Origin: Tridacna crocea
Lineage: Eukaryota > Mollusca > Bivalvia > Cardiida > Cardiidae
Direction: 5' to 3'
DNA: 64,000 nucleotides
Assembly (NCBI GenBank): GCA_943736015.1
Contig: OX031066.1
Coordinates: 12,776,245 to 12,840,244 of the forward strand
In this document: positions 9,873-54,043 of the stretch, piece after piece
How the letters are laid out: every line of letters starts with the position of its first letter
Position numbering within the stretch: position 1 is the stretch's first letter
Made by a program: the position numbers and the translations under genes
Notes under the pieces: generated by a model
What the model was told of the DNA's origin: nothing
What the model saw: the letters and a program-made list of their open reading frames with translations, nothing else
The model's database searches: none

Positions 9873-10098
9873 TTAACCCTTTACCCCATAGGAATTTTCA
9901 GTGGTATCTCTAATTGACCCTAAATAACACCAAGGATGATGCTGTTTTTTTTATGGGTATATGACACCTTTTGATAGCATATAAAACATTGTGGCAAAAG
10001 GTGCTCGTCACCAGCCATTTCACCTTTTGCCACAATGTTTTCCAAAGGCTCCTACAAGTAGTGTGAAGTAAATGAGTATCTATGGAGTAAAGGGTTAA
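9873..10098 (-). mobile_element. PTM type C, full length
   Basis: Has TTAA and CCCTTTAC-type ends but arms unlike type A: ATCTCTAATTGACCCTAAAT on one side and CTCCTACAAGTAGTG ... GAGTATCTATGGAGTAAAGG on the other. Core is AAAACATTGTGGCAAAAGG ... CACCAGCC ... CCTTTTGCCACAATGTTTT, so the core differs from type A in both arms together. Its sister copy is 62675-63311. The GAGTATCTATGGAGTAAAGG end is shared with type B. Confidence 0.88.
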
Positions 10099-10196
10099 AA
10101 AGCTTTGTTTTTTGGGCTCATAAACACAAGGGATTATTTGGTAAGGGATAAAGAAAACTACCCTCAGTGCAAAGTAATAGTGCATTTTAACTTTTT

Positions 10197-10415
10197 ACCA
10201 CACAATCCCGACTTTTCACGACCCTGAGAAAGAAGCCTTTTGAAAACACTGTAGGAAAAGGAGAAAATGCTGGTAACCAGCATTTTCTCCTTTTCCCACA
10301 TTGTTTTCTACCCTTCCCAAACCAAATTTTAGTTCTTTATTCATCATTATTTTGTCGTCTGCAAATGCTTTCAATTTGGACCAGTCTATTATTTTCTCGT
10401 GTGGTAAAGAGTTAA
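10197..10415 (+). mobile_element. PTM type A, full length
   Basis: Ends TTAACTTTTTACCA and TGTGGTAAAGAGTTAA. Shares its right TTAA with a second + copy. Confidence 0.9.
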
Positions 10416-10639
10416 CCCTTTACAACACAATGACGACTTTTGACAACCCTGAGAAAGAAGCCTTTTGAAAACATTGTGGGAAAAGGAGAAAATGCTGGTA
10501 ACCAGCATTTTCTCGTTTTCCCACAATTTTTTTTACCCTATCAATAAATATTTTCACCATTTGAGCCACATTGAAATTACGATCTGAGAATGCTTTCAAT
10601 ATTTGGACAGGGCTAAAATTTCATTGTCTGGTAAAATTT
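10412..10639 (+). mobile_element. PTM type A
   Basis: Left half intact. The right arm is of the variant with CATTTGAGCCACATTGAAAT, and the terminus is decayed (GTCTGGTAAAATTTC). Confidence 0.85.
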
Positions 10640-10862
10640 CATTGCCTACCAAACGACAAATTATAGACTCTTCCAAACTCAAAGAGTTTGCTGATGACAA
10701 TTTCAAATTTGATAAAAATGGCAGAAAGTTGTCCAAATGGGTAGAAAACACTGCGGGAAAAGGAGAAATTGCTCGTTACGAGCAATTTCTCCTTTTCACA
10801 CAGTGTTTTCAAAAGACTTTTACTGCAGACACGTAAAAAAGAGCTTCTCTGGTAAAGAGTGA
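10640..10862 (-). mobile_element. PTM type D
   Basis: Core is GCTCGTTACGAGC with GGAGAAATT arms rather than GGAGAAAATGCTGG. Arms read CTCTTCCAAACTCAAAGAG, AAAATGGCAGAAA, and GACTTTTACTGCAGAC. The distal end is GGTAAAGAGTGAA. The 28-bp satellite begins 13 bp after it. Confidence 0.88.
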
Positions 10863-10875
10863 AGTGAAGTCAGAT

Positions 10876-11295
10876 ACTGATGTATACTGTTCATAAGCTC
10901 AGTACTGATGTATACTGTTCATAAGCTCAGTACTGATGTATACTGTTCATAAGCTCATTACTGATGTATACTGTTCATAAGCTCATTACTGATGTATACT
11001 GTACATAAGCTCATTACTGATGTATACTGTTCATAAGCTCATTACTGATGTATACTGTTCATAAGCTCATTATTGATGTATACTGTTCATAAGCTCATTA
11101 CTGATGTATACTGTTCATAAGCTCATTTGTGATGTATACTGTTCATAAGCTCATTACTGATGTATACTGTTCATAAGCTCATTATTGATGTATACTGTTC
11201 ATAAGCTCATTACTGATGTATACTGTTCATAAGCTCATTTGTGATGTATACTGTTCATAAGCTCATTACTGATGTATACTGTTCATAAGTTCATT
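10876..11295. repeat. 28-bp satellite, 15 units
   Basis: Exactly fifteen units of 28 bp (ACTGATGTATACTGTTCATA then AGCTCATT). Units 8-11 carry starts ATTG, ACTG, TGTG, ACTG and units 12-15 repeat this order, showing a later duplication of a 112-bp block. Units 1-2 end CAGT; unit 5 alone has GTACAT. It lies between two type D PTM copies in opposite orientation. Confidence 0.97.
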
Positions 11296-11322
11296 TCTAA
11301 AGTCCTCTATACTGTATAGGGG

Positions 11323-11549
11323 TTAACCCTTTCTCAAACAAGGCCTGGTATTTACATGTCTGCAGTAAAAGTCGTTCGAAAACACTGTGGGAAAAGAAGA
11401 AATTGCTCAAAACGAGTAATTTCTCCTTTTCCCACAGTGTTTTATACCCTTTTTGAGAATGTTCTGCCATTTTCTTCAAATCTAAAATTGTCGTCTGCAA
11501 CTCTTTAGGTTTGGAAGAGTCCAAAATTTGTTGTTTGGGAAAGGGTTCA
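11323..11549 (+). mobile_element. PTM type D
   Basis: Opposite orientation to the type D copy left of the satellite. Core has AATTGCTCAAAACGAGTAAT, and both outer stem arms carry CACTGTG/CACAGTG. Ends TTTGGGAAAGGGTTCA. Confidence 0.88.
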
Positions 11550-12207
11550 AGGGTAAATGCAAATTACTTTCATTGCAAAAGTGTTTTATTTATTATTTAC
11601 TGAAGTCAAGGATGAAACACAGTTGCCTTTGAGCTGTTAGTTTGTCTACCTTCTTGGAAAAGTAATTGTGTAAAATGGAAATGGAACATACAGAGATTTG
11701 TTCGCCTCACACAAATTATCTAATGAGAAGGTTAATTGTTATTTTTTTTTTGTCAAGCATTTTTTACCCACAAACAACGAATATGGACAAACCAGATGGT
11801 ATTTTGCTGCAAGATTTTGGCAAAACTCTTGCTGATTTTCTTTTCGTCTTCAAGGTAAATGCCATCCTGATTGACAGCCCCAAAGAACCTATGAAATTTG
11901 TCAATTTCCATTGCCTTGTCAGGGAGATAATGTCTCCTTGTTCTGCCATTGATCTATTTTCCAGACTTCCAAACATAAATACTGTACTAATTTTCTTGAC
12001 TTTCCATAATTCTGTAGGAGATCAAGCACTGGTAGGTTGCTCTTGCATAAAGGTTGGTCTAAGATCGAGCTGAACAGAACATGTTTTCTGATCATGTGCC
12101 CGTGATACAGGATATTTTGTGAAGCATTTAGACCAAGAAGGTCAAGAATCTATTGTGGGCGCACAGACTGAAAATATGCACTTCCTTTTATTGCATCTTA
12201 TTATTGG
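11550..12207. other. Unassigned stretch with a 135-codon open frame
   Basis: The open frame at 11666-12073 (plus) has no domain I recognise, and the opposite strand is also open over 11764-11976. This argues for chance rather than coding. No splice signals or codon pattern support it. Confidence 0.45.
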
Positions 12208-12434
12208 TTAAGTCTTTACCAAATAATCCCAGGTTTTAATCCTCCACCCCCCAACAAAGTTTTTTTTGAGAACATTGTGGGAAAAGAAGAAAATGCTGGT
12301 AATTAGCAATATGTCCTTTTCGCATAATATTTTCTATCCTATCCAAGACAAACCTTGCAGTTATAATAAGAGTTAATTTGTTTTCTGCAAATGTTTCATT
12401 GTTGACAAATCTAAAAATTTGTTGTCTGCTAAAT
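12208..12434 (+). mobile_element. PTM type A, diverged
   Basis: Left end TTAAGTCTTTACCAAATAAT, C-rich insertion in the left arm (CCTCCACCCCCCAAC), core AATGCTGGTAATTAGCAATA. Confidence 0.75.
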
Positions 12435-12967
12435 TTTATTAGGTTCTATGCCATGTCACTTTGCTTGCTTTCCTACTGCTAAATTTTTGGTTTCTTCTGC
12501 TCCATGATCTTCTACACTTTTATGTTACAGGTAACTACTATTTATTAGAAGCAAGCTGTTCTCATTAAAATTTGCAGTCATGTATTTTGTAATGTTTCTG
12601 GCTAAGGCAAAAAGGTCACTAGAATTAGACATTAGTCATTTACAAAAAGGCAATTTTGTTTGAACGCGGCCATGAACAATAAACATTGGTTTACTAGATA
12701 TGAACTAAAACCCTACTTTCACGAACAGGTCATTGTTAATAGAATTAGAAACTGTCTAGGTGATGAACAAAAGTTTAATCAAAATAACAAACATTCTTTA
12801 GTAAAACTAGACAATGAAGAAGGGTTTTTTTAGGTCTTGTAAATTTTACATCTGTACTTTCATGGATAGGGAGATTATTTTGTTGATCATAATTATAATT
12901 GAGTGTATATTTGCCTCATATTAACTGAGAAATGTTTGGTCCCCATTTGAGGTATGCCATAAATTGT
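12435..12967. other. Unassigned AT-rich stretch
   Basis: Nothing recognised. Confidence 0.5.
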
Positions 12968-13196
12968 TTAACCCATTACCAAACAATCCCGACTTTCGAC
13001 GACCGTAAGAAAGAAGCCTATGGAAAACATTGTGGGAAAAGGAGAAAATGCTGGTAACCAGCATTTTCCCCTTTTCCCACAATGTTTTCTACCCTTCACA
13101 AAACAAGTTTCAAATTTTTAGTCACTTTTACTTCGTCATCTGCAATTGCTGTCGCTTTGGACAAGCTAAAAATTCTGTCATTTGGTAATGAGTTAA
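12968..13196 (+). mobile_element. PTM type A, full length
   Basis: Clean copy. Left end TTAACCCATTACCAAACAAT, right end CATTTGGTAATGAGTTAA. Confidence 0.92.
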
Positions 13197-14015
13197 GATG
13201 CCAAACAAAATGGCTCCAGAATTTCCATGCAAATAAAATGAGATAATTGTCAAGAAGGATTCCATCACATACAGTCCGTCTCAGATCATCAACTTCCTGA
13301 ACTAGCGGCTGGTTACCTGTGTTACATTTTTTATTGGATGTGATTTTTGGCAGCCGTTACTTTTATAGATTAGGTGGCAGTGCTAAGTTTCTGTTTACAA
13401 GAAATTCAAAATTTTGTCTTTTCAGCAGCTAAAATTTTAAAATTTGAATATACTAGATAACAAATTTGGCCAAATATATTTGAAAGCAGTCATGAACACA
13501 TTTTAATAAATGAAGAATTCAATCATATTGAGCAATTTCTTCACAAATGATTTTTTATTAAATAGTGTTCTGTTGATATTTCTGATTTTTATGTTTATGA
13601 GGGAAAGGGTAAACAGAAGGAGTGTGCCGTTTCCTCCTGTGAACTTTTGACAAACATGTATCTGTGCTGGGAATGAAATTAAGCAGATGTCTGCCCAGTT
13701 CTGATCATGAGGTATATCTTAGCAACCAAGTTTGTCAATTATCTCCAATATACCTTGCAAAATGTGGCAGCCATTTTTAATTCGACCAGACCCTGTCTAC
13801 ATGCTTTTGCATTTAATCCTTCTTTACAGTTTGACATATGAAAGTTAAAACTTCTGCAAAATGCTTATGACTTTCTCGGATTTTTTTTTAACTTGTCCCT
13901 AAACTAGGTTGAACTTGCAGATGGAAATTTTTTATTTTTGTTTGAATATTCAGTTTTGACATACATGTATTTAGGGTATACTGCCCTGATGAACATTGAT
14001 TGTTTATGGTTCGAA
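13197..14015. other. Unassigned AT-rich stretch
   Basis: No PTM trace, RNA or coding signal recognised over about 820 bp. Confidence 0.5.
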
Positions 14016-14245
14016 TTAACCCTTTACCACACGGGAAAGTTCTAGACATATCCAAATTGAAAGTATTTTGCTGATGACAATTTCATTCTGATTCAAATGA
14101 CACAATATTTCATTGACAGGGTAGAAAACTTTGTGGGCAAAGGAGCAAATGCTGGTTACCAGCATTTTCTCCTTTTCCTACAATGTTTTCAAAAGGGTTC
14201 TACCTCAGGGTCGTCAAAAGTCGTCATTATTTGGTAACGGGTTAA
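14016..14245 (-). mobile_element. PTM type A, full length
   Basis: Right arm of the variant with GATTCAAATGACAC. Outer stem GGGCAAAGGAG is paired with CTCCTTTTCC. Shares its distal TTAA with the next element. Confidence 0.9.
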
Positions 14246-14373
14246 CCCATTACCACATCATACCTAATTTTGGCAAGGAAGAAAATTACAAGCATTTTCC
14301 CCTTTTACAACAATGTTTTCTAAGGCATTTTTCACAGTCATGAAAACCAGAGATTGTTTGGTGAGAAGCTAAT
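14242..14373 (+). mobile_element. PTM, shortened
   Basis: About 132 bp. One side of the core is lost and both ends resemble left arms (CCATTACCACATCATACC; CAGAGATTGTTTGGTGAG). It may be a left-left derivative. Confidence 0.7.
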
Positions 14374-14384
14374 GAACTTGAGAA

Positions 14385-14527
14385 TGTAGAACACTCTGAA
14401 CATTTTCTCCTTTTTCCATTGTATTTTCTGAAAATTCAAAGATAAATTCCATTATCTGTGCCACTTTTGATTTGTCAGCTTCTCTGTTTAGAAGACTCCT
14501 GAATTTTATTTTGAGGTAAAGTGTTAC
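14385..14527 (+). mobile_element. PTM remnant
   Basis: Half core ACATTTTCTCCTTTTTCC plus a diverged right arm to GAGGTAAAGTGTTAC. Confidence 0.45.
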
Positions 14528-15221
14528 CCCCTATTACAAGTCTTTTGACTTCAGAAGTGGAATTAAAAAAAGATGATAGGCATCTTGGTTGTGGAAGATG
14601 AGATGACAACAGAAATTTCAAGGCCTCTTCATACAAAAGAGTGGGGAAGGTTTTATATTGTGCCATGTTTAGCAGTTCTCATTAATTTTATCTGTTTGCA
14701 ATGGATGCATTTTATCTTTATGCAAAGTAAAAAAAGACATGTTTGCATTCAGATTAGATGCCAAGGAACACCGAATGTTTCCAAAGATTTCTTGTCAATC
14801 CAGGCCTGTGAGGGCTTATCAGCAAGTATCCCAAGTTGTAAAAATGTGACGATATATTAACTTTATCATTAACAGATAGTAGATCACTTCTGTAGCACCT
14901 TTTGATGTCATTTTAGTGTACTTTTGAAGTTGATATAAATAAGCATTGGCCCAGCACCTGTCCTTAAGTGCAGATATACGGAAGAAAATTGCAAGGAACC
15001 AGTTTTAGCAGATGATAGATATTTACAGTTAGGACGTTAAGGCATTGACATAAAATGATAGAATGATTTGGCTGAGGATCTCGGAGCAAATTCTAAGTGG
15101 CCTGTGGTAATTAGATGGAAGATAAAAACTTGAACCTATTATCTGATAACAAAATTTTTGAACTATTCCAAAGTCAAGGCACCTGAGGTTGATGCCTGAA
15201 GTGATAAGAATCATCTCTATT
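14528..15221. other. Unassigned stretch
   Basis: Holds a 95-codon open frame (14573-14860) partly overlapped by an open minus frame. No domain recognised. Confidence 0.45.
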
Positions 15222-15415
15222 TGGTTTCCAGGCCCCATATTCACCAACCATTCTTCAGAATATTCTTAGTCTTATTCTCTAATGTTTTCTAAATTTGTAA
15301 GTAACACAACCTCTGATTGGCTGAACCAAATAGTTTAGCCAATCAGAAGTTGTATTACTTACAAATGTAGAAAATTCTGGAGAATAAGACAAAGAATTCT
15401 TTTTGGTTTCCTGGA
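15222..15415. repeat. Fold-back element P2, complete copy
   Basis: Arms of about 85 bp: GTCTTATTCTC, TTTGTAAGTAACACAACC and CTGATTGGCTGAACC on the left are mirrored by TTAGCCAATCAG, TATTACTTACAAA and GAGAATAAGAC on the right. GGTTTCC occurs at both extremes. Interrupted or half copies lie at 21150-21246 and 63459-63842. Confidence 0.85.
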
Positions 15416-15575
15416 TGGTGTTTATGCAGACAACACTACTTCAGTCATTGTGACAGTAGAGCACCTGCCACATAAATGCAGTGGCTCTTTTCAGTCTAAT
15501 TGAATTTGTGTTAATCTATTGTTGCCCACTGGTTACGCATATGGGTGATGTCCCCCTGAAAACTGGGTCGTCAGT

Positions 15576-15804
15576 TTAACCCATTACCACACGAGAAAAA
15601 TTTAGACTGGTCCAAATTGAAAGCATTTGCAGACAACAAAATAAAGGTGACTGAAAAATTGAAATTAGATCTGGGAAGGATAGAAAACACTGTGGGAAAA
15701 GGAGAAAATGCTGGTTACCAGCATTTTCTCCTTATCCCACAGTGTTTTCTAATGGCTCTTTTCTCAAGGGCGTCAAAAGTAGGGATTGAGTGGTAATGGG
15801 TTAA
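15576..15804 (-). mobile_element. PTM type A, full length
   Basis: Both outer stem arms carry CACTGTG/CACAGTG instead of CATTGTG/CACAATG, so the stem stays paired. Right end GAGTGGTAATGGGTTAA. Confidence 0.92.
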
Positions 15805-15835
15805 TATCTCATCCCAAAGACTTACTAATTTTAGA

Positions 15836-15929
15836 TGGCCAGCCATGGGAGTCGAACCCACGCCTTCAAGTGACCGGAAACATCATATGCATGAGTCATA
15901 TGCTCTGCTAATTGAGCTATGTGGGCTAG
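15836..15929 (-). tRNA. tRNA-like sequence with long variable arm (pseudogene or SINE head)
   Basis: Read on the minus strand, TAGCTCAATTAGCAGAGC forms a D arm with GCTC/GAGC paired, and GGGTTCGACTCCC gives the T arm with a consensus B box. About 24 bases between the anticodon and T arms indicate a type II (Ser/Leu-like) layout. The acceptor stem pairs poorly (GCCCACA against GGCTGGC) and the base before the expected anticodon is not T. It is therefore probably a decayed tRNA or a tRNA-derived SINE rather than a working tRNA. Confidence 0.5.
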
Positions 15930-16159
15930 TCAGAAGTCTTTTCAATCTCCCAAAAAGAGGCAATGTCAAGGCTGTTTACTCAGTCTAATTTACAAGCCCA
16001 AAACCGTCCTCATTTCTTAGGACAGCAGTACTTTTTGAAACTGTTATGTTAATAGCCTGATTATCACCATAATGGCCATTGAATGTACTGTCAAAACATG
16101 TAAATCCTAAGAACTCATTTCACATGACCAAAAAATACAATTATCCTACTTTAAATTAT

Positions 16160-16325
16160 TTCCACAGAATGGAAATGTGGCTTGAATAGTGAAACTTGTC
16201 TTTCAACGAACAGGAAATATTGTAGGAATAGGAGAAAATGCTGGTTATCAGCATTTCTTTTTTGCCCCAAAATATTTTGAAAATGCATCTATTATCAGGG
16301 TCATTAAAACTAAGGATTGAGTTAT
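16160..16325 (-). mobile_element. PTM remnant
   Basis: Core GGAGAAAATGCTGGTTATC is readable. Right arm mostly lost, left arm ends AAAACTAAGGATTGAG. Confidence 0.6.
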
Positions 16326-16346
16326 ATACAGTTATATATATGTAGA

Positions 16347-16558
16347 TTAAGCTTTTACGAAACAATCCAGGGTCTGAGAAGATACAGAAGACTTTGGAAA
16401 ACACCTTGTGAAAAGGAGAAAATACTGGTAGCCAGCATTTTCTTCATTTGCCACAATGATTTCAACCCTTAGCAAAAAAGATAATTTCAGCAACATTTAA
16501 AATCAATTTTGCTCAAGTTTTGACATGTTTATAATTTCGTCATTTAGTAAACATAAGA
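16347..16558 (+). mobile_element. PTM type A, diverged
   Basis: TTAAGCTTTTACGAAACAAT start. Core GGTAGCCAGC. Right end CGTCATTTAGTAAAC without TTAA. Confidence 0.7.
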
Positions 16559-16608
16559 GTGAGAAACATTTGACAGTTTAGATCCAAAAGTAGGATATGT
16601 CTTATTTT

Positions 16609-16631
16609 CAGTCTGATCTTGGTCTACAATG
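16609..16631. repeat. S repeat, half copy
   Basis: CAGTCTGATCTTGGTCTACA, fused directly to the left arm of the following PTM. Confidence 0.55.
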
Positions 16632-16835
16632 CCCTACTTTTGACAACCCTAAGAAAAAAGTCTGTAGAAAACCTTGTGGGAAAAGGAGAAAATGCTGGTA
16701 ACACCAGCATTTTCTCCTTTTCACACAATTTTTTCTACCCTTCACAAAACAAATTTGCAGTCTTTTGTATTTTGTCTTCTGCAAATGCTTTCAATTTGGA
16801 CAAGTCTAAAATGATGTCGTCTGGTAATGGGTTAA
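16627..16835 (+). mobile_element. PTM type A, left terminus missing
   Basis: Starts in the left arm (CCCTACTTTTGACAACC). A 3-bp insertion (GGTAACACCAGC) breaks the core centre. Right end TCTGGTAATGGGTTAA intact. Confidence 0.85.
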
Positions 16836-18190: not shown

Positions 18191-18197
18191 AGTTAGG

Positions 18198-18658: not shown

Positions 18659-20242
18659 AGCTCACCTGAGCACAACGTGCTCAAGGGGAGCTTTTAGGAT
18701 CACCCGGTGTCCGTCGTCCGTCGTGCGTCGTCAACAATTCTTTAAACATCAACTCCTCCTAAACTGCTGGGCGGATCTGGACCAAACTTGGCAGGAATGT
18801 TCCTTGGGAGGTCCTCTTTAAAAATTGTTCACAGAATTTGATTCCATCAAAAACTCTGGTTGCCATGGCAACCAAATGGAATTTTTTAGCAAATTCTTAG
18901 AAAATCTTCTCCTCTGAAACCGCTGGTTGGATTTTGAAATAATTTCACAGATATGTTCCTTGGGTGACCCTTTTCAAAAATTGTTCGTGAAATTTTGATT
19001 CATCAAAAAATGGGGCTCTGGTGAATGGGGGCTTCTTGCACTATACAGAAATGAAGGAATTCTTTAAAAATCTTCTCCTCTGAAACCGCTGGTCGGATTT
19101 TGAAATAATTTCACAGATATGTTCCTTGGGTGACCCTTTTTAAAAATTGTTCGCGAAATTTTAATTGGTCAAAAAATGTGGCTCTGGTGAATGGGGGCTT
19201 CTTGCCCTGTACAGCAATGAAGGAATTCTTAAAAAATCTTCTTCTCTGAAACCGCTGGTCAGATTTTGAAATGATTTCACAGAGTTATTCCTTGGGTGAC
19301 CCTTTTAAAAAAGTGTTCGCGAAATTTTGATTGGTCAAGAAACATGGCTCTGGTGAATGGGGGCTTCTTGCACTATACAGAAATGAAGAAATTCTTAAAA
19401 ATTCTTCTTCTCTGAAACAGCTGGTTAGATTGTGAAATAATTTCACAGACTTGTTCCTTGGGTTACCCTTTTCAAAAATTGTTCGCGAAATTTTGATTGG
19501 TCAAGAAACATGGCTCTGGTGAATGGGGGCTACTTGCACTATACAGAAATGAAGAAATTCTTAAAAATTATTCTTCTCTGAAACCGCTGACCAGATTTTA
19601 AAGTAATTTCACACAGATGTTCCTTGGGTGACCCTTTTCAAAAATTGTTCGCGAAATTTTGATCTTTCAAGAAACATGGCTCTGGTGAATGGGGGCTTCT
19701 TGCACTATACAGAAATGAAGAAATTCTTGAAAATTCTTCTTCTCTGAAACCCGTGGTCAGATTTTAAAATAATCTGACAGAGATGTTCCTTGGGTGACCC
19801 TTTCCAAAAGCTGTACATATAATTTTGATCCATCAAGAAACATGGCTCTTGTGAATGGGGGCTACTTGCACTATACGGACATGATGAAATTCTTTAAAAT
19901 TCTCTTTCTCTGAAACCCCTGGTCAGATTTTGAGATCATTTCAGAGAGATGTTCCTTGGGTGACCCTTTTCAAAACTTGTTCGTAAATTTTGATCCATCA
20001 AGAAACATGGCTCTCGTGGATGGGGGCTACTTGCTCTTATACAGAAATGAAGAATTCTTAAAAATTCTTCTTTTTGAAACTGATGGTCAGATTTCGAAAT
20101 GACTTTTACAGGTGACCTTTTGAAAATTGCTTGGTAAAATTATAAATTTGGTTCCAATGTTTCAATACCTCAAAAAAAAAATAGACTATGGTCATCTCAA
20201 AAATTCAGGTGAGCGATCCAGGGCCATCTTGGCCCTCTTGTT
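18659..20242 (+). repeat. 1.6-kb dispersed element with 8 internal tandem units
   Basis: Starts AGCTCACCTGAGCACAACG, which continues into the hairpin GTGCTCAAGGGGAGC, then a run of TCCGTCGTCCGTCGTGCGTC. Ends TTCAGGTGAGCGATCC and GGGCCATCTTGGCCCTC. CTCACCTGA and TCAGGTGAG are terminal inverted repeats. The body has about 8 units of ~166 bp, each with CTCTGAAACCGCTGGTC, TTCCTTGGGTGACCC and GGTGAATGGGGGCT at matching offsets. I recall such ends from a repeat widespread in bivalves; the identity is not verified. No coding frame persists. Confidence 0.8.
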
Positions 20243-20581: not shown

Positions 20582-20842
20582 CTGTCAAAATGTTGGACCA
20601 CGTATCAAAAATACAACAGGCTGTCAAAAAAAACATTGTAAAGTGCAAACCTGATAACAAAGATAGGGCCGCAGTTTTGAGGACTTGCCAATATAGGGGT
20701 CATCCACCATGCAACTGCATAATCAATGTAATTTATATAATTACAATTAGAAAATGCTGACATCCTCAAAAAAAAAAACAGTGGCAGAGAGAACTTTAAC
20801 TAATTAATCATACTTTACCGTCTTTTTTTTAGGGGACCATAT

Positions 20843-21070
20843 TAACCCTTTCCCAAACAATCCCTGGTTTTTACGGGAAAGGAATAGAAGCCTTTTGAAA
20901 ACATTGTGGGAAAAGGAGAAAATGCTGGTAACCAGCATTTTCTCCTTTTCCCACAATGTTTTCTACCCTATCGTATAGAAAAATCATCTTTTAAGCAACT
21001 GTTAATTTGTCATCAGCAAAATGCTTTGAATTTGGTCTGGTCCAAAATTTGCCGTATGGGAAAGGGTTAA
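20843..21070 (+). mobile_element. PTM type E, full length
   Basis: Left arm CCAAACAATCCCTGGTTTTT then GGAATAGAAGCC. Perfect type A core. Right arm with AAATCATCTTTTAAGCAAC, TGTCATCAGCAAAATGC and AAATTTGCCGTATGGGAAAG. Its sister copy at 63553-63776 shares all of these. Confidence 0.92.
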
Positions 21071-25054: not shown

Positions 25055-25499
25055 TTAACCCTTTACCAAAAAATCCCTGGTTTTTACGGCCCGGACATAA
25101 AAGCTTATTGAAAACATAGTGGGAAAAGGAGAAAATGCTGGTAACCAGCATTTTCTCCTTTTCCCACAGTGTTTATCCCTTTACTCCATAGATACTCATT
25201 TTGACGTATCAACAACAGACAGTTTCTGAAAACATTGTGGGAAAAGGAGAAATTGCTCATAACGAGCAATTTCTCCTTTTCCAACAATGTTTTCCACTGT
25301 ATCAGATATTTGTATCCTCATTTGTCCATATTTTTGACATTATATCTTTATTTGCTGCTGAAATGGAAGAGCCTCAAATTGGCATATCAGGTAAAGGGTT
25401 AATACCCTGCTTTCAATTTTTGAGTTACCTTTATTTTGTTGTCTGCAATTGCATTGAATTTGGACCAGTCTAAAATTTTGTCATTTGGTAAAGAGTTAA
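25055..25499 (+). mobile_element. PTM type A, split by a type B copy
   Basis: Left half through the complete core ends at CCCACAGTGTTTA (25174). The right half resumes at 25399 with TTAATACCCTGC and ends GTAAAGAGTTAA. The halves are the two sides of one element. Confidence 0.88.
25172..25402 (+). mobile_element. PTM type B nested in a type A copy
   Basis: Ends CCCTTTACTCCATAGATACT and ATCAGGTAAAGGGTTAA. Arms TGACGTATCAACAACAGAC and TTGCTGCTGAAATGGAAGAG. Core GCTCATAACGAGC with GGAGAAATT stems. The left flanking TTAA has decayed. Type B shares only termini and core with type A. Its sister copy is 53813-54043. Confidence 0.9.
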
Positions 25500-25727: not shown

Positions 25728-25919
25728 GTAACTTCTTACCAAGCAACAAAATCAACCATATTTGAGAGCACATGCAGACAACAAAAGGAAATTAATCGGG
25801 CTGAAAAATAACAACAAGTTGTGAGAAGGGTAGAAAATATTGTGGGAATTCCTACAATGTTTTCAAAAGGCTTCTTTCTCATGGTAGTTAAAACTCGAGA
25901 ATGTGTGGTAAAGAGTTAA
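25728..25919 (-). mobile_element. PTM type A with core deletion
   Basis: The palindrome is reduced to AAATATTGTGGGAATTCC then TACAATGTTTTC; the inner ~45 bp is gone. Ends CTTCTTACCAAGCAAC and TGTGGTAAAGAGTTAA. Confidence 0.85.
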
Positions 25920-34913: not shown

Positions 34914-35369
34914 TTGAACCCTTAACCACACAATCCAAAGCTTTAAAGACCCTGTTGAAGAAGGCTTTTAAAAACTTTGTGGAAAAAGGAGAAAATACCT
35001 GTAACCAGCATTTTTTTTCCCTAGTTTTGCAATCTTTTTTACCCTTTAACCCTTTACCAAACAACAAAAGTTTGGACCGGTCCAAGTTGAAAGTACTTGC
35101 AGATGACAATCTAAACATAACTCAAAAATTGAAATTTGTCTTGGGAAGGGTAGAAAATACTGTGGGAAAAGGAGAAAATGCTGGTTACCAGCATTTTCTC
35201 CTTTTCCCACAATGTTTTCAAAAGGCTTCTGTTTCAGACTTGTAAAAACCAGGGATTCTTTGGTAAAGGGTTAAGTGACAGAATGGTCTTGACAATTTAC
35301 TTTCTGTATTGTCTGCAATCACTTTTAATTTGGACAAGTCTGAACTTTTATGTTTCTTTAAAGTGTTAA
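34914..35369 (+). mobile_element. PTM type A, split by a younger PTM
   Basis: Left part to TTTTTTACCCTTTAA at 35049. Right part resumes TTAAGTGACAGAATGG at 35271 and continues TGTATTGTCTGCAATCAC to AAAGTGTTAA. The join falls just beyond the core. Confidence 0.88.
35046..35274 (-). mobile_element. PTM type A nested inside a PTM
   Basis: Clean copy, perfect inner palindrome, TTAA on both sides, inside 34914-35369. Confidence 0.93.
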
Positions 35370-44872: not shown

Positions 44873-45100
44873 TTAACCCTTTCCAAAATGACAAAGTTTG
44901 GAATCTTCCAAATCGAAAGAGTTTGCAGACGACAATTTCAGATTTTGAGAAAATGGCAGAAAATTCTCGAAATGGGTAGAAAACACTGCGGGAAAAGGAG
45001 AAATTGCTCATAATGAGCAATTTCTCCTTTTCCCACAATGTTTTCAAAAGACTTTTACTGCAGACAGGTAAAAACCAGGGCTTGTTTGGGAAAGGGTTAA
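44873..45100 (-). mobile_element. PTM type D, full length
   Basis: Matches 10640-10862: AATCTTCCAAATCGAAAGAG, GAAAATGGCAGAAAATTC, core GCTCATAATGAGC, GACTTTTACTGCAGACAGG, end TTTGGGAAAGGGTTAA. Confidence 0.92.
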
Positions 45101-45325
45101 CTCTTTACCATACAATCCCTGGTTTTAAAGTCACTGAGGAAGAAGCCTTCTGAAACTATTGTAGAAAAAGGAGAAGATGCTGGTAACCGACATTTTTTTC
45201 CATTTCCAACAGTGTTTTCTACTCTTCCAAAGTCAAGTTCAATTTTTCAGTCACATTCATTTTGTTGTCTGTAAATGTTTTCAATTCGGCCAACTCTAAA
45301 ATTTTGATGTATGGCAAAGAGTTAA
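45097..45325 (+). mobile_element. PTM type A, full length
   Basis: Shares TTAA with the type D copy. Core GGTAACCGAC. Right end GTATGGCAAAGAGTTAA. Confidence 0.88.
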
Positions 45326-45357
45326 CTCTCTACCATAAGAGTTAACTCTCTACCATA
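45318..45357. repeat. 20-bp tandem duplication at a PTM end
   Basis: AGAGTTAACTCTCTACCATA occurs twice back to back, duplicating the junction of two PTM ends. Confidence 0.9.
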
Positions 45358-47156: not shown

Positions 47157-47381
47157 CTCTTTACCAAATGACAAAATTTTAGACTGATCCAAATTGACAG
47201 CACTTGCAGACGACAAAACAAAACTAGCTGAAAAATTGAAATTTGTTTGGGAAGGGTAGAAAGCGTTGTGGGAAAAAGGAGAAAATGCTGGTAACCAGCA
47301 TTTTCTCCTTTTCCCACAATGTTTTCAGAAGGCTTCTATGCCAGGTATGTAAAAAGCATGGATTGTTTGGGAAAGAGTTTA
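47153..47381 (-). mobile_element. PTM type A, full length
   Basis: Core GGTAACC in minus orientation (exception). End GTTTGGGAAAGAGTTTA. Confidence 0.9.
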
Positions 47382-47644
47382 TGAAGCCCTCTTTTGCAAG
47401 CACACGGCTCATAATCTTTGAGAGAAAATTAATAGTAAAGAATCATTGTCTCACAGGAAGTGAGTGGATAGGGAATTTTTTTATACAACTGTTACCTACC
47501 ATTGAGTGAAATGACTTTTTTATGAGTTTTTTCGTGCCATCATACTTTTACCAGCTGAAGATGAGTTAGTAGTGGTTTGACAGTTGCTATGCTCATTACA
47601 ATCAACATACAGCTGTTAACCCTCTCCCTTTTGGTAATGCCGAT

Positions 47645-47707
47645 CATCTTTACCAAACGACAAATTCTTTAGACTTACGGAAATCCAAAGAATTGGTAAT
47701 GAGTTAA
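47645..47707. mobile_element. Miniature PTM with right ends on both sides
   Basis: 63 bp: CTTTACCAAACGACAAATTC at one end and AATTGGTAATGAGTTAA at the other, with no core. Shares TTAA with the next copy. A nearby TTAACCCTCTCCCTTTTGGT at 47617 may be another solo end. Confidence 0.65.
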
Positions 47708-47936
47708 CCCTTTACCACACAATACAGACTTTTAATGACCCCGAGAAAGAAGCCTTTTGAAAACACACTGGGAAAAGGAGAAAATGCTGGTAACCAGCAT
47801 TTTCTCCTTTTCCCACACTTTTTCTACCCTTCCTAACACAATTTTTTTTTATTTTTCAGTCACATTTATTTTTTGGTCTGCAAATGCTTTCATTTTGGAC
47901 CAGTCTGCTATTTGGTTGCTCGGCATAAAGACTTAA
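47704..47936 (+). mobile_element. PTM type A, full length
   Basis: Left end TTAACCCTTTACCACACAAT. Stem GAAAACACACTGGG on one side only. Right terminus CGGCATAAAGACTTAA. Confidence 0.9.
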
Positions 47937-47978
47937 TAGATCATCAATAGACAGCATTCCAAAATGTTTATAGAAATC

Positions 47979-48080
47979 TAGCAATATTTTAATGGAGATG
48001 TTATGTGCTATCAATGGATTTGCGCGATCGATCGATTGATTGCGCAAATCCATTGGTAGCGCATAACAGAGATATTGCTA
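47979..48080. repeat. Fold-back element P4
   Basis: TAGCAATATTTTAATGGAG, GTTATGTGCTATC and AATGGATTTGCGC mirror GCGCAAATCCATT, GGTAGCGCATAAC and GATATTGCTA. The centre, GATCGATCGATTGATT, is itself repetitive. Confidence 0.85.
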
Positions 48081-48918
48081 ATGACAAAAACGTAAAAAAA
48101 ATCAGATTTTCCTCAGTGTTTCAAAGTCTGCTTGTATAACCGCATTTTAATTTGTTTATCTACTTTTTGTAAATGGTAGATCATTCTGGTGTCTCAGCAT
48201 TTCAAATAGTTTAGATGAAGGATTGAAGTAATTACATGAAAGTAATCTGTTTTCAGGTAAATGAAGTTGGGTTACAGAAAAGACACCTAAAGGCAATTAA
48301 AGCCAAATGGCTTCAAAATTTTATCCTGCAGGGCACTGAATAAACGTAACAAACATTTCCAGTTAAGAAATAAGACCTACATATTTTCACATTCAACTCT
48401 TTTGCAAATTGGATAATGTAGATGAAAAATCAGACTGTTTGTTGTGTGCAGTCTGCTCTTGATCTTTATTGACCGCAAAGTTGTGTAGTTGTTGATTTTA
48501 AGTGATTTAGAAATTAAGTTTGTATGGCTTGGTCACACCGAGCTAATGGACGAGTAGTGGATTTAAAAAAAATCATTGTATTCTATCATGTCCATTCGTT
48601 TCTGTTTTGTGTCCATTTTGTATCTGGTGAATCTGCTGCTTGTTTGGCGATGTTCAGTGATATCCGTTCTGTCTGATTGGAAGTTTTTCACACAATGATA
48701 TCTGACATTAGACTTAATTATCCGGTACTTTCCAGTAAACATGTTTTTTCTGTTACATGTGTGGTACTTATGCTGTCATTGTGTTGCTTCTTTGCTCGAC
48801 ACACCAATCGTGTGACACTCAAGCAGCAGACTCACTCAGGAGATGAATTTTGAGACCAGATAACAAAATTCTGCATGTTTTTGTCTGTTTTCCCTCCATT
48901 AGTTGGTCTGACCAAGCC
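48081..48918. other. Mostly unassigned; one S repeat
   Basis: ATAATGTAGATGAAAAATC then AGACTG and GCAGTCTGCTCTTGATC form an S fold-back at 48412-48473. No other signal. Confidence 0.5.
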
Positions 48919-49040
48919 CTTACTACCCCACAAAAATTTTAGACTTACCCAAATTGAAAAAAGTTGCATATTTACCTTTGATAGAGAAGAGGGAACCGTT
49001 GGAAAAGGATAAAACACTGATTACCAAATTTTTTTACAAT
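48919..49040 (-). mobile_element. PTM remnant
   Basis: TTTTAGACTTACCCAAATTG, GAACCGTTGGAAAAGG, GATTACCAAATTTTT. Left arm missing. Confidence 0.5.
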
Positions 49041-49831
49041 TTTTATGCAGAATGTACGAGTCCAGACTGAAGAATACAAATCATGTTATTGAGTTTCTAT
49101 GTACATTACATTACACCTGCTTAAGGACTCAAAGGGAACTGTTATCTGACTTGAATATTAATTTATATCAGAATCCCATTAAATCTTGATAAAAATATAC
49201 TTGAAGCTTTTACAGGATCCCTTTTGACTGACAAGTAAGGGACAGATTAATTTCTAACTTGCCTAATTGTATTTTAGATTATTCTTTTTTTCACAGTTTA
49301 TCATGTGTCATACTTTTGATATCTTCCTTCCCTATAATGACTGTGTATTAAAACCCATTGCTTATTTATACAAAGATTGACATCTATGTCTCTTTAATTT
49401 TGTTATATATGGTCATTGTCTGAGCATTTCATATTGAAGATTCAACCTGTCTTATATGACGCATCACTCCCCCTAATACACGGGAGGGGGGGGGGGGTTG
49501 TTTAGTAATACACACTCTAAAGTAGCAATGGGGAAATAGCTTTTATTAGTATGTTTGAGGAGAAATGTTATAGGCCCAGATTTCTCTAAACTGCCGATCA
49601 TAGCTGTATGAATCGCACCAGACAGCGTTTAATAGATTAAACGATTAATTTAGTTCGAAATTCAAAGTACCATTCGAGCAGAAAAGTAGTCCGATTCAGT
49701 ACCCAGGATGCCCAAATTAGTTAAGATGTGTATTTGTAGAACGCCATCTTGCAGGAGATAATGGTATATTTTAATTGCTGAATTACTAAATGGGGCTTTT
49801 GTTCCTTATTCATGAGGTTGACATTTTCAGT
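49041..49831. other. Unassigned, with a 12-G run
   Basis: G run at 49486-49497. Nothing else recognised. Confidence 0.5.
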
Positions 49832-49876
49832 TTGGACTATATCTAACCTAAAATTTTTTCTTTGGGTAAAAAGTTG
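49832..49876 (+). mobile_element. PTM right-end fragment
   Basis: TTTGGACTATATCTAACC then TTTGGGTAAAAAGTTGA. Confidence 0.45.
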
Positions 49877-50322
49877 AGTAAGTCATTTCTTGCAAGTTGT
49901 AATCAAGAGAGTTTCAAAAGAAGTGTCACTCCTCACCTCAATTTTTTGGCATTTTCTTTTTCCTTATCATCAAAGGGCTTGTCTTTTATGAGTTGTCATG
50001 ATTAGGAGGGTGCTTGCTTTTTTTTTTTAGATCTGCATCATGAAGATGCATGCATAAGATAGCAAAGTCTTCTGGTACATAAGCCATTAATTATGATGTC
50101 ATAGATATTTACCTGTCAATGGTTAAACTCAAAGATAATCAGGCTTTTGTCTTGTCTGCTATGTTTGTGTGTGTCTTGTTGATTTGTCTGCAAGAAAAGC
50201 AAGTCCATATTGATGCCAACAAAGTTAAGCTTACTTGTATGCACAAAGTACACAAAATAAGCTTCTGTGAATCGTCATCTACATTGACTTTAGGCTTTTG
50301 GAGTAAAGAACTGCACAGTTTT
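49877..50322. other. Unassigned stretch
   Basis: The 72-codon frame at 50119-50337 has no recognised domain. Confidence 0.5.
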
Positions 50323-50513
50323 TTAACCCTTTACTAAACAAATAAGGTCGGAGTTTTAGCAACCCTGAGAAAGAAGTCCTTTGAAAAGCTGATTATCAGC
50401 AGTTTCTCCTTTTCCCTTTCAAAGGCATTTTTTTTTTTAAATTTGAAAGTATTTTGTTTTTTTATGTGTTGAATTTGGAGCTGTCCAAAGTATTGTTGCT
50501 TGTTAATAGTTAA
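50323..50513 (+). mobile_element. PTM, diverged and shortened
   Basis: TTAACCCTTTACTAAACAAA, CAACCCTGAGAAAGAAGTCC, core GCTGATTATCAGC with short stems, end CTTGTTAATAGTTAA. Confidence 0.75.
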
Positions 50514-51017
50514 GGGTTTATTCCCAAATTTTAAGTGCTTCTCCACTTCTCTAGCTTGTGGCCGGTTCCAGTGGCCCTTCTGTTTAGTCTAAGGCTCTCA
50601 CTTGGATCAAAGGTAGGGAAACAATGACTGTCATTCAGTGATGTTTATTGCCCAGGTCTTGTAATCACATTTTTCTATCTTAAAAACATTTGTTTGTTAT
50701 CGGCAACACAATTTTGAGCATTTTGAAGTGTTTACGGGTTTGGCATGCTGACAAGACGGCAGTTACACCAGGCTTTTTGGAGGATGAACTGACAATGTGT
50801 TCCAAATTTATTTTATAAAATACATACCCACTCTGACACAAAAAAGTGGGAAGTGCAGTCAATAAAACTGAAGGCTGTTTTTTTTCTCCCTTTGCTTCAG
50901 TAGTCAAGACTGCAATGACTTTTGACAATTATGTGCTGTGAAGTGTATTATTTAAGGTTTTATTTGAAAGTCTATTGCCAAATATGTGTTAAGACTTATT
51001 TTGATGGCTTTAACCCT
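50514..51017. other. Unassigned stretch
   Basis: Nothing recognised. Confidence 0.5.
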
Positions 51018-51174
51018 AAACTGTCTTACCACACATAACCAAAGTTTTAATGACCCTGAGGCAGAGGGCATTTGAAAACATTGTGGGAAAAGGAGAAAAT
51101 GTTGGTAACAAGCATTTTCTCGTTTCCCACAATGTTTTAATACGTTCTCCATGGATTCTGTGATAAAGAGTTAA
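51018..51174 (+). mobile_element. PTM type A, right arm mostly deleted
   Basis: Left arm GACCCTGAGGCAGAGGGC, core GTTGGTAACAAGC, then only GGATTCTGTGATAAAG and AGTTAA. Confidence 0.8.
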
Positions 51175-52142
51175 GGTAAGGAGAACTACTATAGTTTCTT
51201 TAAACGTATTTGTTTACATTGATTGAGAAACATTTTCATAAAGTTATACCAATCTCTCTGGACTCTGCTTCCTGGGAACTACATCAGTACTCATGTCGAA
51301 TGTGTGGGTCAGTAAAAAATCCGAAAGTTGACGACCGCTCTGTGTTATTGAAATCTGGACCTCAAAGTTACGAGGCCTACAATCTACCTCACAACCTTGG
51401 ACACCACTGTACATAGTTTCTATGTTTATGATAGGCTCACACTGCTGAAACTTTGCCGTTGGATCTTGATTGTCTAATGATCTATCATACATATTTGGTC
51501 GAAAAGCTTCATGCTTTCCCTAATCAAAGCATTGAGAACGCTGAAGTGGTATTTGTCAAAGTAAACCCATTGTGTGGAATTAATAGTTTGAAAGAAAAAG
51601 AGACATAGTGTTCAAATATTGGCTTAAAAATCAACCCACTAAGCAAATGAATATCTTTTCGGTTGAAGGGAGAGTGCTCATGTACCTTAAAACTATAATT
51701 TTGAAATATCTGTAGCCATTTACATTTAATGTCCAACATTACAATCAATTACTTCGATCTATAAATATTCATGAGCAATCACATGTAGAAGCGCGCAATC
51801 ATAGGAAGAACAAGCCATGGAACGAATTGGTTTGAAACAAAAAAGCAGGCAAATTTGTATCATTGCACCAATAAAAGGCTATGAGCGATAGACGCTATTT
51901 TCAATAAAAAATAAGTATCTCAATGATCGATGGCCTTGCCCAATGTATTTTAATATTCCATTTCAAATTAAATATCTGAGTGCTACCGAAAAACTCATTT
52001 TCCTGAGAAAAAATGAGTTTAACTGGGTTTATTTCCTTCGGCTTTGCACAAAATAAGATACATGGTTATCAAAATTCAATCTTGAACTCATTGTGGTATT
52101 GTCTTCGACAAATACCACAAAAATGTTCTGTACCAGTCAGGT
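51175..52142. other. Unassigned stretch
   Basis: Around 51240-51490 the GC content rises and both strands are open over 68-82 codons. No domain, tRNA or repeat is recognised. Confidence 0.45.
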
Positions 52143-52371
52143 TTTACTCTGTACCATATGACAAAATTTTGGACTGAACCAAATTTAAAGCATTTGCAAA
52201 CAACAAATTACATGCAGCTCAAATGGTTACCTCAGTCTTTTTTGGGGTAGAAAAAGTTATTGGAATAGCAGAAAATCTTGGTAACCAGTGTTATCTCTTT
52301 TCCCAAAAATGTTTCCAAAAGCCTTGTCTTCCAGAGTTGTTATAAATCTTGATTGTGCAGTGAAAAGTTAA
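52143..52371 (-). mobile_element. PTM type A, diverged
   Basis: TTTACTCTGTACCATATGAC, AAAGCATTTGCAAACAAC, core CTTGGTAACCAGTG, end TGCAGTGAAAAGTTAA. Confidence 0.75.
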
Positions 52372-52497
52372 TCAAAGTAGCTTGATGCTCATGAAAATAT
52401 GGTCAAGTAAGTAGCATACCACTTACTTTAATTATAAGATGATTACTATATTAAAAGAAAAAAAATGAAAAAAATGTTTATCATGACCATTAAAAGT

Positions 52498-52695
52498 TTA
52501 ACTCATTACCGAATGACTAAATTTGTGGCTTGTCCAAACTGGAAGCATTTGTAGACAACAAAATAAAAGTGACTGAAAATTTGAAATCTGTTTTATGAAG
52601 GGTAGAAAACATTTTGGGAAAAGGAGAAAACAAGGTTTTCTAAAGGCCTCTTTCTCAGGGTCGTCAAAAGTAGGGTTTGTGTGGTAATGGGTTAA
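52498..52695 (-). mobile_element. PTM type A with core deletion
   Basis: GGGAAAAGGAGAAAACAAGG jumps to TTTTCTAAAGG, removing the palindrome centre and second half. Ends clean. Confidence 0.88.
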
Positions 52696-52793
52696 ATCCT
52701 AGTATCACATTTTATCAAAATCAGGCAAGATCTTCTTTATTCAACATTCAGCATTAACTTTTTCTCATATGCAGTTCCAGTAATTTGGTGAGA

Positions 52794-52822
52794 TGTAAAA
52801 ATTCTAAATACCCACCTTTAAG
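52794..52822 (-). repeat. Inverted end of the TTAAAGGTGG repeat
   Basis: AAATTCTAAATACCCACC then TTTAAGAG is the reverse complement of that repeat's start, 37 bp before the full copy. Confidence 0.7.
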
Positions 52823-52858
52823 AGCTGATGAAAAAATGAGTTACAACACATTTAGCTC

Positions 52859-53391
52859 TTAAAGGTAGTTACTTAGAATTTTCACATCACACCAAATCAA
52901 AAAATATATATATCACTGAAACAATACAAATCATCAATAATTAAGAATCATAAAATTACCAAAAAAAATTTTTTTGATGGTATTCTCTTAAAAGGCTACG
53001 TAGCCTCTTAAGCTATTTTTAGATTTTGCGCCAAAAATAAAAAAATGCATTGTGAGAATGTTAAGTGACTGGCACATGACTAATTATGCTTAAATTCCAT
53101 TACATAACAAACATGTAGTTATTTTTCATAATATCTTCTTCGGACACTAAGTTTGAAGCTTCGTCTGTGTATTCCCAGTAGGTAAATGAGAGAGTTGTTC
53201 ATGTAAAAACAGAATGTGTTTCCCGTTGATGTCAACCTTAGCCGTAGTAAATCTCTAATTTCTCATGTTGTCAGATGGTTTTCGATTACTGGGGTTTTAT
53301 GAATGAGGATTATAAGGCTTTGGGAGTATAAAGACAATATTTTTGTATTTTTGTAAAACTTTCATCCCAAATTTTGAAGGGCCACCTTTAA
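52859..53391 (+). repeat. TTAAAGGTGG-ended dispersed repeat, copy 2
   Basis: Starts TTAAAGGTAGTTACTTAG and ends GGGCCACCTTTAA. Shares TTAAAAGGCTACGTAGCCTC and the remaining body with 3235-3782. Confidence 0.75.
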
Positions 53392-53421
53392 ACTGCTTAG
53401 CGTGACTCACTGACCTTTTTG

Positions 53422-53486
53422 TGGACAGTGTAGATCAAGAACAGATTGCATGAAAGTGGAGTCTCTTCTTTGATCTACATTGTCCA
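53422..53486. repeat. S repeat, complete fold-back
   Basis: GGACAGTGTAGATCAAG ... CAGATTGCAT and CTTTGATCTACATTGTCC at the other end. Confidence 0.75.
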
Positions 53487-53500
53487 ATAAGGACATTTTT

Positions 53501-53729
53501 CTAACCCTTTACCAAACAACAAAATTTTAGACTGGTCCAAATTAAAAGCACTCTCAGACAACAAAATAAATGTTACTCAAAAATCAAAATTTGTTTCCAG
53601 CAGAGTTGAAAACATTATGGGAAAAGGAGAAAATGCTGGTTACCAGCATTTTCTCTTTTTCCCACAATATTTTCAAAAGACTTCTATCTCAGGGTCGTAA
53701 AAACCAGGGACTGTTTGGTAAAGGGTTAA
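53501..53729 (-). mobile_element. PTM type A, full length
   Basis: CTAACCCTTTACCAAACAAC to GACTGTTTGGTAAAGGGTTAA (shown without overlap of unrelated flank). Inner core perfect. Confidence 0.92.
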
Positions 53730-53812
53730 AAAAAGCTATCATGGAAATAGCAGAATTCGGGTTTGTATACGGGCTTAAAAATTTCATTCCATTCATTTCA
53801 GCAGGGTAAGAG

Positions 53813-54043
53813 TTATCCCTTTACCTGATATGCCAATTTTAGGCTCTTCCATTTCAGCAGCAAATAAAAATATGATGTCAAAAATGTGGACAAATTAGGA
53901 TACAAATATCTGATTGAGTGGAAAACATTGTGGGAAAAGGAGAAATTGCTCGTTACGAGCAATTTCTCCTTTTCCAACAATGTTTTCACAAGCTGTCTGT
54001 TGTTGATGCGTCAAAATGAGTATCTATGGAGTAAAGGGTTAAT
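53813..54043 (-). mobile_element. PTM type B, full length
   Basis: Reverse of 25172-25402: GGCTCTTCCATTTCAGCAGC, core GCTCGTTACGAGC, CTGTCTGTTGTTGATGCGTC, end ATCTATGGAGTAAAGGGTTAA is split as ATCTATGGAG and TAAAGGGTTAA. Confidence 0.92.

Follow-up and report, generated by a model that had tools for sequence, protein, structure and literature searches.

The internal parts of miniature inverted-repeat transposable elements (MITEs) are usually regarded as passive filler, and the TTAA tetranucleotide is targeted by both piggyBac and piggyBat. In the piggyBac-type MITEs of Acropora corals (CMITEs), a 75-bp internal region is described as more conserved between families than the terminal inverted repeats (TIRs), and the authors suggest that it has a role in transposition (PMC2872659). 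In piggyBac and piggyBat, palindromes are described as being bound by the two C-terminal domains of a transposase dimer, and the ends of piggyBac carry identical 19-bp palindromic repeats at unequal distances from the tips (PMC11707139). Here we analyse a stretch of 64,000 nucleotides from the bivalve Tridacna crocea (assembly GCA_943736015.1, OX031066.1, positions 12,776,245–12,840,244), hereafter the window, which lies on contig 11 of a genome of 1,048,827,098 bases. The repeats that had been noticed in the window are genuine: they form one family of non-coding MITEs, flanked by TTAA, that have ends like those of piggyBac and a palindrome in their central part. The core and the ends are conserved in the lineages that multiplied, and we give a probability of about 0.68 to the reading that the family belongs to the piggyBac superfamily and that its palindrome works as a module in cis, probably as a transposase site, at a fixed spacing.

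The type consensuses of the MITE are 228–230 bp long, and 52 of 188 near-full copies measure exactly 229 bp. The family ends are CCCTTTACC/CCCATTACC, of the form CCC...GGG, with TIRs that match each other, and the central palindrome spans 67 bp, formed by 33-bp arms around one base. The type A1 copy at 55454–55682 (minus strand) is a clean reference of 229 bp including both TTAA, with palindrome arms of 35 without mismatch and the centre at 88/140. Its 67-bp core (55561–55627, GAAAACATTGTGGGAAAAGGAGAAAATGCTGGTWACC...) is predicted to fold as one stem over a 69-nt stretch (−38.5 kcal/mol as DNA, shuffle z −14.6), and the cores of four copies are each predicted to form one stem at −34.2 to −38.5 kcal/mol as single-stranded DNA. 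With up to 3 mismatches allowed, the window has 145 matches to CATTGTGGGAAAAGGAG, where shuffling predicts 0.37; a palindrome scan of the window returns 76 strong hits, 62 of them counted as MITE core, and 47 elements with both ends and the palindrome were extracted. Short, non-coding, bounded by TIRs, high in copy number and uniform in length, the family has the defining properties of a MITE. No transposase is present among the 10 of 307 window open frames that were scanned (the six longest and four others), where one weak ICAM_N match is taken as chance, and tRNA and Rfam scans of the window give no matches (for Rfam, none at the gathering score).

The divergence of the core relative to the arms is the central observation. 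The sub-type sample comprises the 188 near-full copies aligned from 312 kb (the window and the loci L009–L040), excluding other pieces, mostly fragments, and clustering separates these copies into types A1, A2, E, F, D, B and C. Changes were mapped by parsimony on a FastTree tree of 179 of the copies, with 9 dropped for gaps. On terminal branches, the core accumulates 11.8 changes per site, the two arms 18.9 and 18.3, and 12 inner TIR positions 13.8; on branches with at least 4 tips, the corresponding values are 0.57 for the core, 2.98 and 3.30 for the arms and 1.17 for the inner TIR positions. The core is slower than the arms by 5.6-fold on deep branches versus 1.6-fold on terminal branches, with a terminal:deep odds ratio of 3.6 and a Fisher p of 1.6e-17 that is indicative because the tree was built from the same sites. 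Measured against the A1 consensus, the cores of B, C and D differ by 0.13, 0.07 and 0.10, and their right arms by 0.63, 0.54 and 0.35. A profile of the arm alone finds 162 right arms, with a core beside 150 of them and at the exact offset in 128, and core divergence falls below arm divergence in 126 of 139, where arms are scored against the nearest consensus and cores against the A core only. Among these 162 right arms, detected independently of the core, there is no core-less subfamily; in the 12 that have no good core, it seems to have been deleted or to have decayed long ago. A first-pass annotation of this DNA had proposed comparing core with arm divergence, and in the consensuses, the tree and the arm-only sample alike the core is far less diverged between lineages.

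The core also changes symmetrically. With pairs numbered from the palindrome centre, the consensus differences among A, B, C and D at pairs 3, 8, 13, 20 and 26 are matched on both arms, and the one-sided exceptions in these main types are pair 2 in D and pair 22 in C. The same annotation held that B, C and D retain the ends and a stem resembling CATTGTGGGAAAAGGAG: ends and core are indeed kept while the arms diverge, but the B core is CATTGTGGCAAAAGGTG, not literally CATTGTGGGAAAAGGAG, and is changed alike on both arms. In the 188 copies, 106 paired cells are two-sided, versus 34.9 with arms shuffled (s.d. 5.2, maximum 55 of 500), a comparison that ignores the kinship of copies. Mapped on the tree, terminal branches carry 589 pair-breaking, 33 restoring and 20 two-sided events, deep branches carry 20, 8 and 3, respectively, and three tight clusters contain 93 one-sided versus 3 two-sided paired core changes. 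A genome-wide test covers pairs 10 and 11 only, neither of which separates the types. For A-to-G at pair 10, 841 places are one-sided and 17 two-sided, with 0.96 expected (18-fold); at pair 11, 3252 are one-sided and 153 two-sided, with 14.4 expected (11-fold); and the non-partner control, pair 10 on one arm with pair 11 on the other, gives 14 versus 7.45 expected (1.9-fold). The 17 and 153 two-sided places may be independent conversions or small founder lineages, and could partly be the latter.

The alternative that survives best, though we think it less likely than not, is that the symmetry and part of the conservation arise from fold-back of the DNA into a hairpin or cruciform during replication, with one arm templating repair of the other and no function in transposition. 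The partner excesses of 18- and 11-fold over a 1.9-fold control, at pairs that do not separate types, are consistent with such correction, as are the palindrome deletions in three resident copies and a terminal-branch core rate that is 0.64 of the arm rate. Core changes in resident copies are nonetheless almost all one-sided (the 93 versus 3 in tight clusters and the 589 versus 20 on terminal branches), and correction this weak is unlikely to yield a core that is 5.6-fold slower on deep branches. Small amplified lineages could account for part of the two-sided places, and fold-back repair leaves unexplained both the conserved spacing and the presence of the core in every sampled lineage. A role of the hairpin in replication, suggested in the first-pass annotation, gains no support in this analysis.

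The spacing in question is uniform among types. The palindrome centre lies 88 bp from one end in the consensuses of A1, A2, B, D, E and F and in both C copies, and 139–141 bp from the opposite end in every type; single window copies vary: of the 47, 31 have the 88-bp distance and 20 have exactly 88/140. In 85 clustered copies, the arms carry 60 insertions or deletions (indels) per 1046 substitutions and the core 33 per 245. Simulation with the observed arm indel sizes gives a chance of 0.21, 0.13, 0.08, 0.05 and 0.02 that the left arm stays unchanged and the right arm within 1 bp after 45, 60, 80, 100 and 150 substitutions, respectively, or 0.06–0.32 if indels are limited to at most 5 bp. Considered for D, C and B together, these values moderately support a length constraint on the arms.

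The insertion pattern points to the piggyBac superfamily. With element ends snapped within 4 bp for scoring, TTAA is present at both ends in 86 of the 188 near-full copies, at one end in 62 and at neither in 40. The two nested insertions found both resolve, such that removal of the insert and one TTAA yields the interrupted copy at the expected spacing; in one, the type C element at 25173–25402 (plus strand) is inserted at a TTAA inside the type A element at 25055–25499. End counts and nested insertions together demonstrate a TTAA target-site duplication, a trait of the piggyBac superfamily. The left end is CCCT in the consensuses of A2, B, C, D, E and F, CCCA in A1 and CTCT in the lineages S4 and S6; the terminal motif of the superfamily is given as CC[C/T]T (PMC2872659). 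L011, an element of the same genome that carries a PF13843 transposase, also starts with CCCA. The Kolobok superfamily was considered and rejected, as the left termini of the type consensuses are CCC (CTC in S4 and S6), not AG/RR. The two TIRs tend to change together: in raw counts, position 7 pairs as T/T 90 times, A/A 30 times and T/A or A/T 35 times, and position 10 as A/A 132 times, C/C 13 times and C/A 8 times. At 45317–45357 in the window, a 20-bp duplication of an element end, AAGAGTTAACTCTCTACCAT, occurs twice without change. Among the 188 copies, 16 flush neighbour pairs share a TTAA, and 218 of 2460 TTAAs are element ends; flush neighbours occur at about the chance rate for TTAA insertion, and tandem amplification is not needed as the main route.

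The genome contains at least 118 matches to PF13843 (DDE_Tnp_1_7), many with open frames. In the 20 transposase neighbourhoods examined, element ends are clear in 10 and doubtful in L025, the clear ones including CCCTATCCTCCAC, CCCATTTATGCC, CCCTTTATATAC, CCCTTTCAGYGC and CCCTWGTCATGC. End pairs of the MITE type flank the transposase in L010, L014 and L017, and those checked belong to complete, separate MITE copies. The piggyBac element in L010 (2824–7078) is 4.26 kb long, has four tandem repeats of 36 bp beside one tip and holds several weak core-like stretches between its own ends, which look like old, decayed MITE insertions. In L011, one inverted repeat lies about 130 bp from one tip and again about 14 bp from the other; it is not prominent in the end-palindrome scan, which penalises a central loop. 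L022 and L023 each have two copies of CCGGAATATTCCGG close to one tip, equalled by 0 and 1 of 60 shuffles, respectively. Across the 14 transposase-element ends scanned, 4 have a palindrome matched by at most 3 of 60 shuffles and 10 do not. Decayed MITE copies are common to L021 and L026, where they lie in opposite orientation, and L009 and L012 have one decayed copy that is nearly identical between them; because of these shared copies, the transposases concerned seem to lie in larger duplicated segments.

These neighbourhoods bear on a second alternative, which we consider doubtful: that the palindrome represents two subterminal inverted repeats of a longer autonomous element, joined by internal deletion so that both binding sites came to lie back to back. 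The asymmetric 88/140 distances do recall the 19-bp repeats described at unequal distances in piggyBac (PMC11707139), and one autonomous element here, L011, has an inverted repeat near both tips. However, the 20 transposase neighbourhoods revealed no autonomous element that carries this half-palindrome at its ends, and the core-like stretches inside L010 have the appearance of decayed insertions.

Under the reading that we prefer, the palindrome would be a cis-acting transposition module, most likely bound in dyad by the C-terminal zinc domains of a transposase, as in piggyBac and piggyBat; by this analogy, a transposase binding site is plausible. One central site at a fixed distance could serve both ends of a 229-bp element, and the arms would act as spacers, nearly free in sequence but held in length. 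Copies would be moved by transposase supplied in trans and would decay after insertion, with the core losing most of its protection. Core changes would tend to be matched on the opposite arm, whether by selection for dyad symmetry, by correction templated on the hairpin, or by the two together.

Several observations weigh against this reading. The autonomous partner was not found, as 0 of the 10 clear-ended transposase elements have MITE ends (20 neighbourhoods of at least 118 matches), and the most abundant type, A1, starts with CCCA and not with the piggyBac terminal CC[C/T]T. The palindrome is more than three times longer than the 19-bp palindrome of piggyBac. Perfect symmetry is not required, because the consensuses of the lineages S4 (6 copies, mismatch at pair 16), S6 (4 copies, pairs 22 and 26), S8 (3 copies, pair 6) and S9 (3 copies, pairs 14 and 15) carry one-sided core mismatches. 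Conservation of length by chance is only moderately unlikely for one lineage (about 0.02–0.2). In the largest tight cluster (n = 26), private changes are as frequent in the core as in the arms (0.0240 versus 0.0220, odds ratio 1.10, p 0.69), but the clusters of 18 and 8 have fewer in the core (p 0.004 and 0.024); because of these two clusters, a mutational or correction effect may act to some extent on the core. The contrast between shared and private changes also varies: the clusters of 26 and 48 show it strongly, that of 18 lacks it and that of 8 shows the reverse; the private:shared counts are 41:24 in the core and 72:153 in the arms for the cluster of 26, 14:17 and 60:76 for the cluster of 18, and 10:9 and 41:9 for the cluster of 8. 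A mutational cold spot as the whole cause is not favoured, given the equal private rates in one cluster, but it may contribute, with lower core rates in two.

A bolder version of the cis-acting module, which we think unlikely, makes the palindrome obligatory and self-correcting: the long dyad would serve both ends at a fixed distance, copying across the hairpin would renew the symmetry and turn single mutations into paired ones, and the resulting new core types (A to C/D to B) might match different transposases. Less probable still is that the hairpin acts as RNA, the 33-bp stem of transcribed copies feeding small-RNA pathways or masking the element from silencing. The near-perfect stem, for which four copies give −34 to −38.5 kcal/mol as single-stranded DNA, and the symmetric changes that preserve pairing would suit such a role, but no Rfam family is present at the gathering score in the window and the conserved spacing to both TTAA ends would have no explanation. 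Plain decay, by which B, C and D would be old A copies with core and arms diverging alike, can be dismissed, for although the arms of D and C show homology to A, and A2, E and F are intermediate types, both B and D form lineages of several copies, each with a separate consensus (10 copies of D and 5 of B in 312 kb, and 19,606 places with the B core in the genome), core divergence between types is several times below arm divergence, and the tree (terminal:deep odds ratio 3.6) and the arm-only check (126 of 139) reject equal divergence.

The relationships among the types are best seen in the arms, aligned in register and scored as z values against letter shuffles of one consensus. Against A1, the D arms score 5.0 (left) and 7.3 (right) along their whole length, the C arms 3.4 and 3.4, and the B arms 2.9 and 1.9. 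Because of these scores, D is plainly the same element as A and C weakly so, whereas B aligns weakly in the left arm and its right arm is hardly distinguishable from unrelated sequence. A, D, E, F and, weakly, C share one ancestry, and B is the most remote type. The earlier statement that the arms of B, C and D do not align with those of A therefore fails for D and, weakly, for C, and nearly holds only for the long arm of B. A2, E and F are intermediate types, with E and A2 between A and D: E combines an A core with D-like ends and outer arm, and A2 combines a D/E outer left arm with an A inner arm. As had been noticed, B and C share one end, identical at 10 of 10 TIR positions and at 18 of the next 20 (28 of 30 positions); their right-middle arms match at only 11/38 and 17/35. 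Sharing between types that otherwise differ is limited to the outermost 34 bp of the short arm, and links B with C, and A2 with E and D. With A1, A2 and F pooled on the left and copies unclear on either side omitted, no cross-combination of left-middle and right-middle arms occurs in the 85 copies assignable on both sides, and free arm swapping is thus not seen. There is slight mixing of the outer left arm inside the A group, where outer form i occurs with the F right arm in 2 copies and outer form ii with the A1 right arm in 2. The absence of middle-arm cross-combinations and the sharing of the outer end therefore indicate that arms are inherited as linked blocks and that exchange, or a special constraint, is found mostly at their outer end. 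The suggestion in the first-pass annotation that the arms are replaceable filler, to be examined through their interchangeability, is not borne out: no middle-arm exchange is seen in the 85 copies, the arms of D and C show homology to those of A, and arm length is maintained. A whole-genome search with the B right arm gave no match despite 3 complete B copies outside the window, and is uninformative, as the method skips very common words.

Individual copies in the window illustrate the types. Type A1 elements lie at 319–547 (minus strand, its TTAA flush-shared with the element at 95–322), 1913–2141 (minus) and 57235–57463 (plus), and an A2-like element of 229 bp at 35046–35274 (minus) has the outer left arm AATCCCTGGTTTTTAC and its palindrome centre at 88/140. 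The type E element at 20842–21070 (plus), an A-to-D intermediate, joins a type A core to D-like ends (CCCTTTCCCA) and a D-like outer left arm. Types B, C and D are present where they had been reported. The D elements are at 44873–45100 (minus; arms homologous to A, core AATTGCTC...GAGCAATT), 11323–11549 (plus) and 10647–10861 (minus; ends decayed). The second C element, at 53813–54042 (minus), is 93% identical to that at 25173–25402 and in the opposite orientation. The B elements are at 9873–10098 (minus; one palindrome arm short by 6 bp) and 63089–63311 (minus; damaged, far end decayed). Three copies, all on the minus strand, have lost palindrome sequence: at 59225–59400 the palindrome has collapsed to GGAAACATGTTTTC, at 52498–52695 most of one palindrome arm is missing and at 25728–25919 the palindrome centre is missing, losses that would be expected if the stem folds during replication. 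Between two D-type copies, at 10875–11295, there is a 28-bp tandem repeat of fifteen copies with 95% matching, and a 166-bp tandem repeat of about seven copies occupies 18891–20100. Other long palindromes, unlike the MITE core, are centred at 6362, 20419, 15329, 29160, 847, 42363 and 48033; some are nearly perfect over arms of 34–36 bp and perhaps represent other MITE or foldback families.

The family extends across the genome. A profile built from 42 of the 47 window elements, with 5 irregular or distant ones omitted, covers 34% of the window, 12% of the 20 transposase neighbourhoods and 22% of 12 arbitrary 4-kb stretches (bootstrap 12–33%, with two of the 12 lacking any MITE). It has 0 matches when the window and the 12 stretches are shuffled three times (336 kb). 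Exact matches to the 31-bp A core number 183,553 genome-wide, with 0 for the reversed control, and 9 A cores fall in the 12 arbitrary stretches against 8.4 expected from the genome density; the B core, made slightly degenerate, occurs at the 19,606 places given above. A degenerate core has no exact match in the viral_contigs or genome_contigs collections, from which records near this genome may be omitted. Scaling from the sample (52 exact cores, 184 near-full copies and 322 pieces) gives about 0.65 million near-full copies and about 19% of the genome, and a bootstrap from the 12 stretches alone gives 0.83 million (0.42–1.25) copies and 22%, so that, from sampling, the family covers about 19–22% of the genome. 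The 10-kb neighbourhoods of the transposases L011 and L018 are without any copy of the MITE, and because these two and two of the 12 arbitrary stretches hold none, the family is unevenly spread.

A family that fills about a fifth of a 1-Gb genome matters for the growth and silencing of that genome. Its hundreds of thousands of copies amount to a natural mutagenesis experiment, in which counts can show how each position affects mobility and how fast the palindrome is corrected. The comparison of terminal or private with inherited changes provides an internal control for the statistical case that the central palindrome and its distances to the ends are kept by what can transpose.

Among described elements, T2-MITEs of the Kolobok superfamily are alike in targeting TTAA and in being long-lived and abundant, but their ends are reported to start with AG/RR (PMC6004289), in contrast to the CCC...GGG form found here. 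The closer likeness in mechanism is to piggyBac and piggyBat, for which palindromic subterminal repeats bound by two C-terminal domains are described, placed asymmetrically from the tips in piggyBac; those of piggyBac are short (19 bp) and near the ends (PMC11707139), whereas the MITE has one 67-bp palindrome in mid-element. Stretches of the element sequence find no related match in literature text, where coral CMITEs are nearest by topic, and absence from print is not proven by this. The CMITEs are the closest precedent, likened here through their published description: they are piggyBac-type MITEs with TTAA duplications and, in most families, CCCTTT-like ends, and, as in the clam family, where the deep-branch rate is 0.57 for the core and 1.17 for the inner TIR positions, they have an internal region that is steadier than the TIRs (PMC2872659). 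They differ in being about 100 bp long (96–108 bp) with about 1600 copies estimated in A. millepora, as opposed to 228–230 bp and hundreds of thousands of copies here, and in having tandem arrays that are ascribed to slippage (PMC2872659), whereas flush neighbours here occur at about the chance rate. The searched text of that report makes no mention of a palindrome (PMC2872659), whereas the core described here is palindromic. What the Tridacna crocea family adds to the CMITEs is the palindrome, its paired evolution, the conserved spacing, the test of private versus inherited changes, and the scale.

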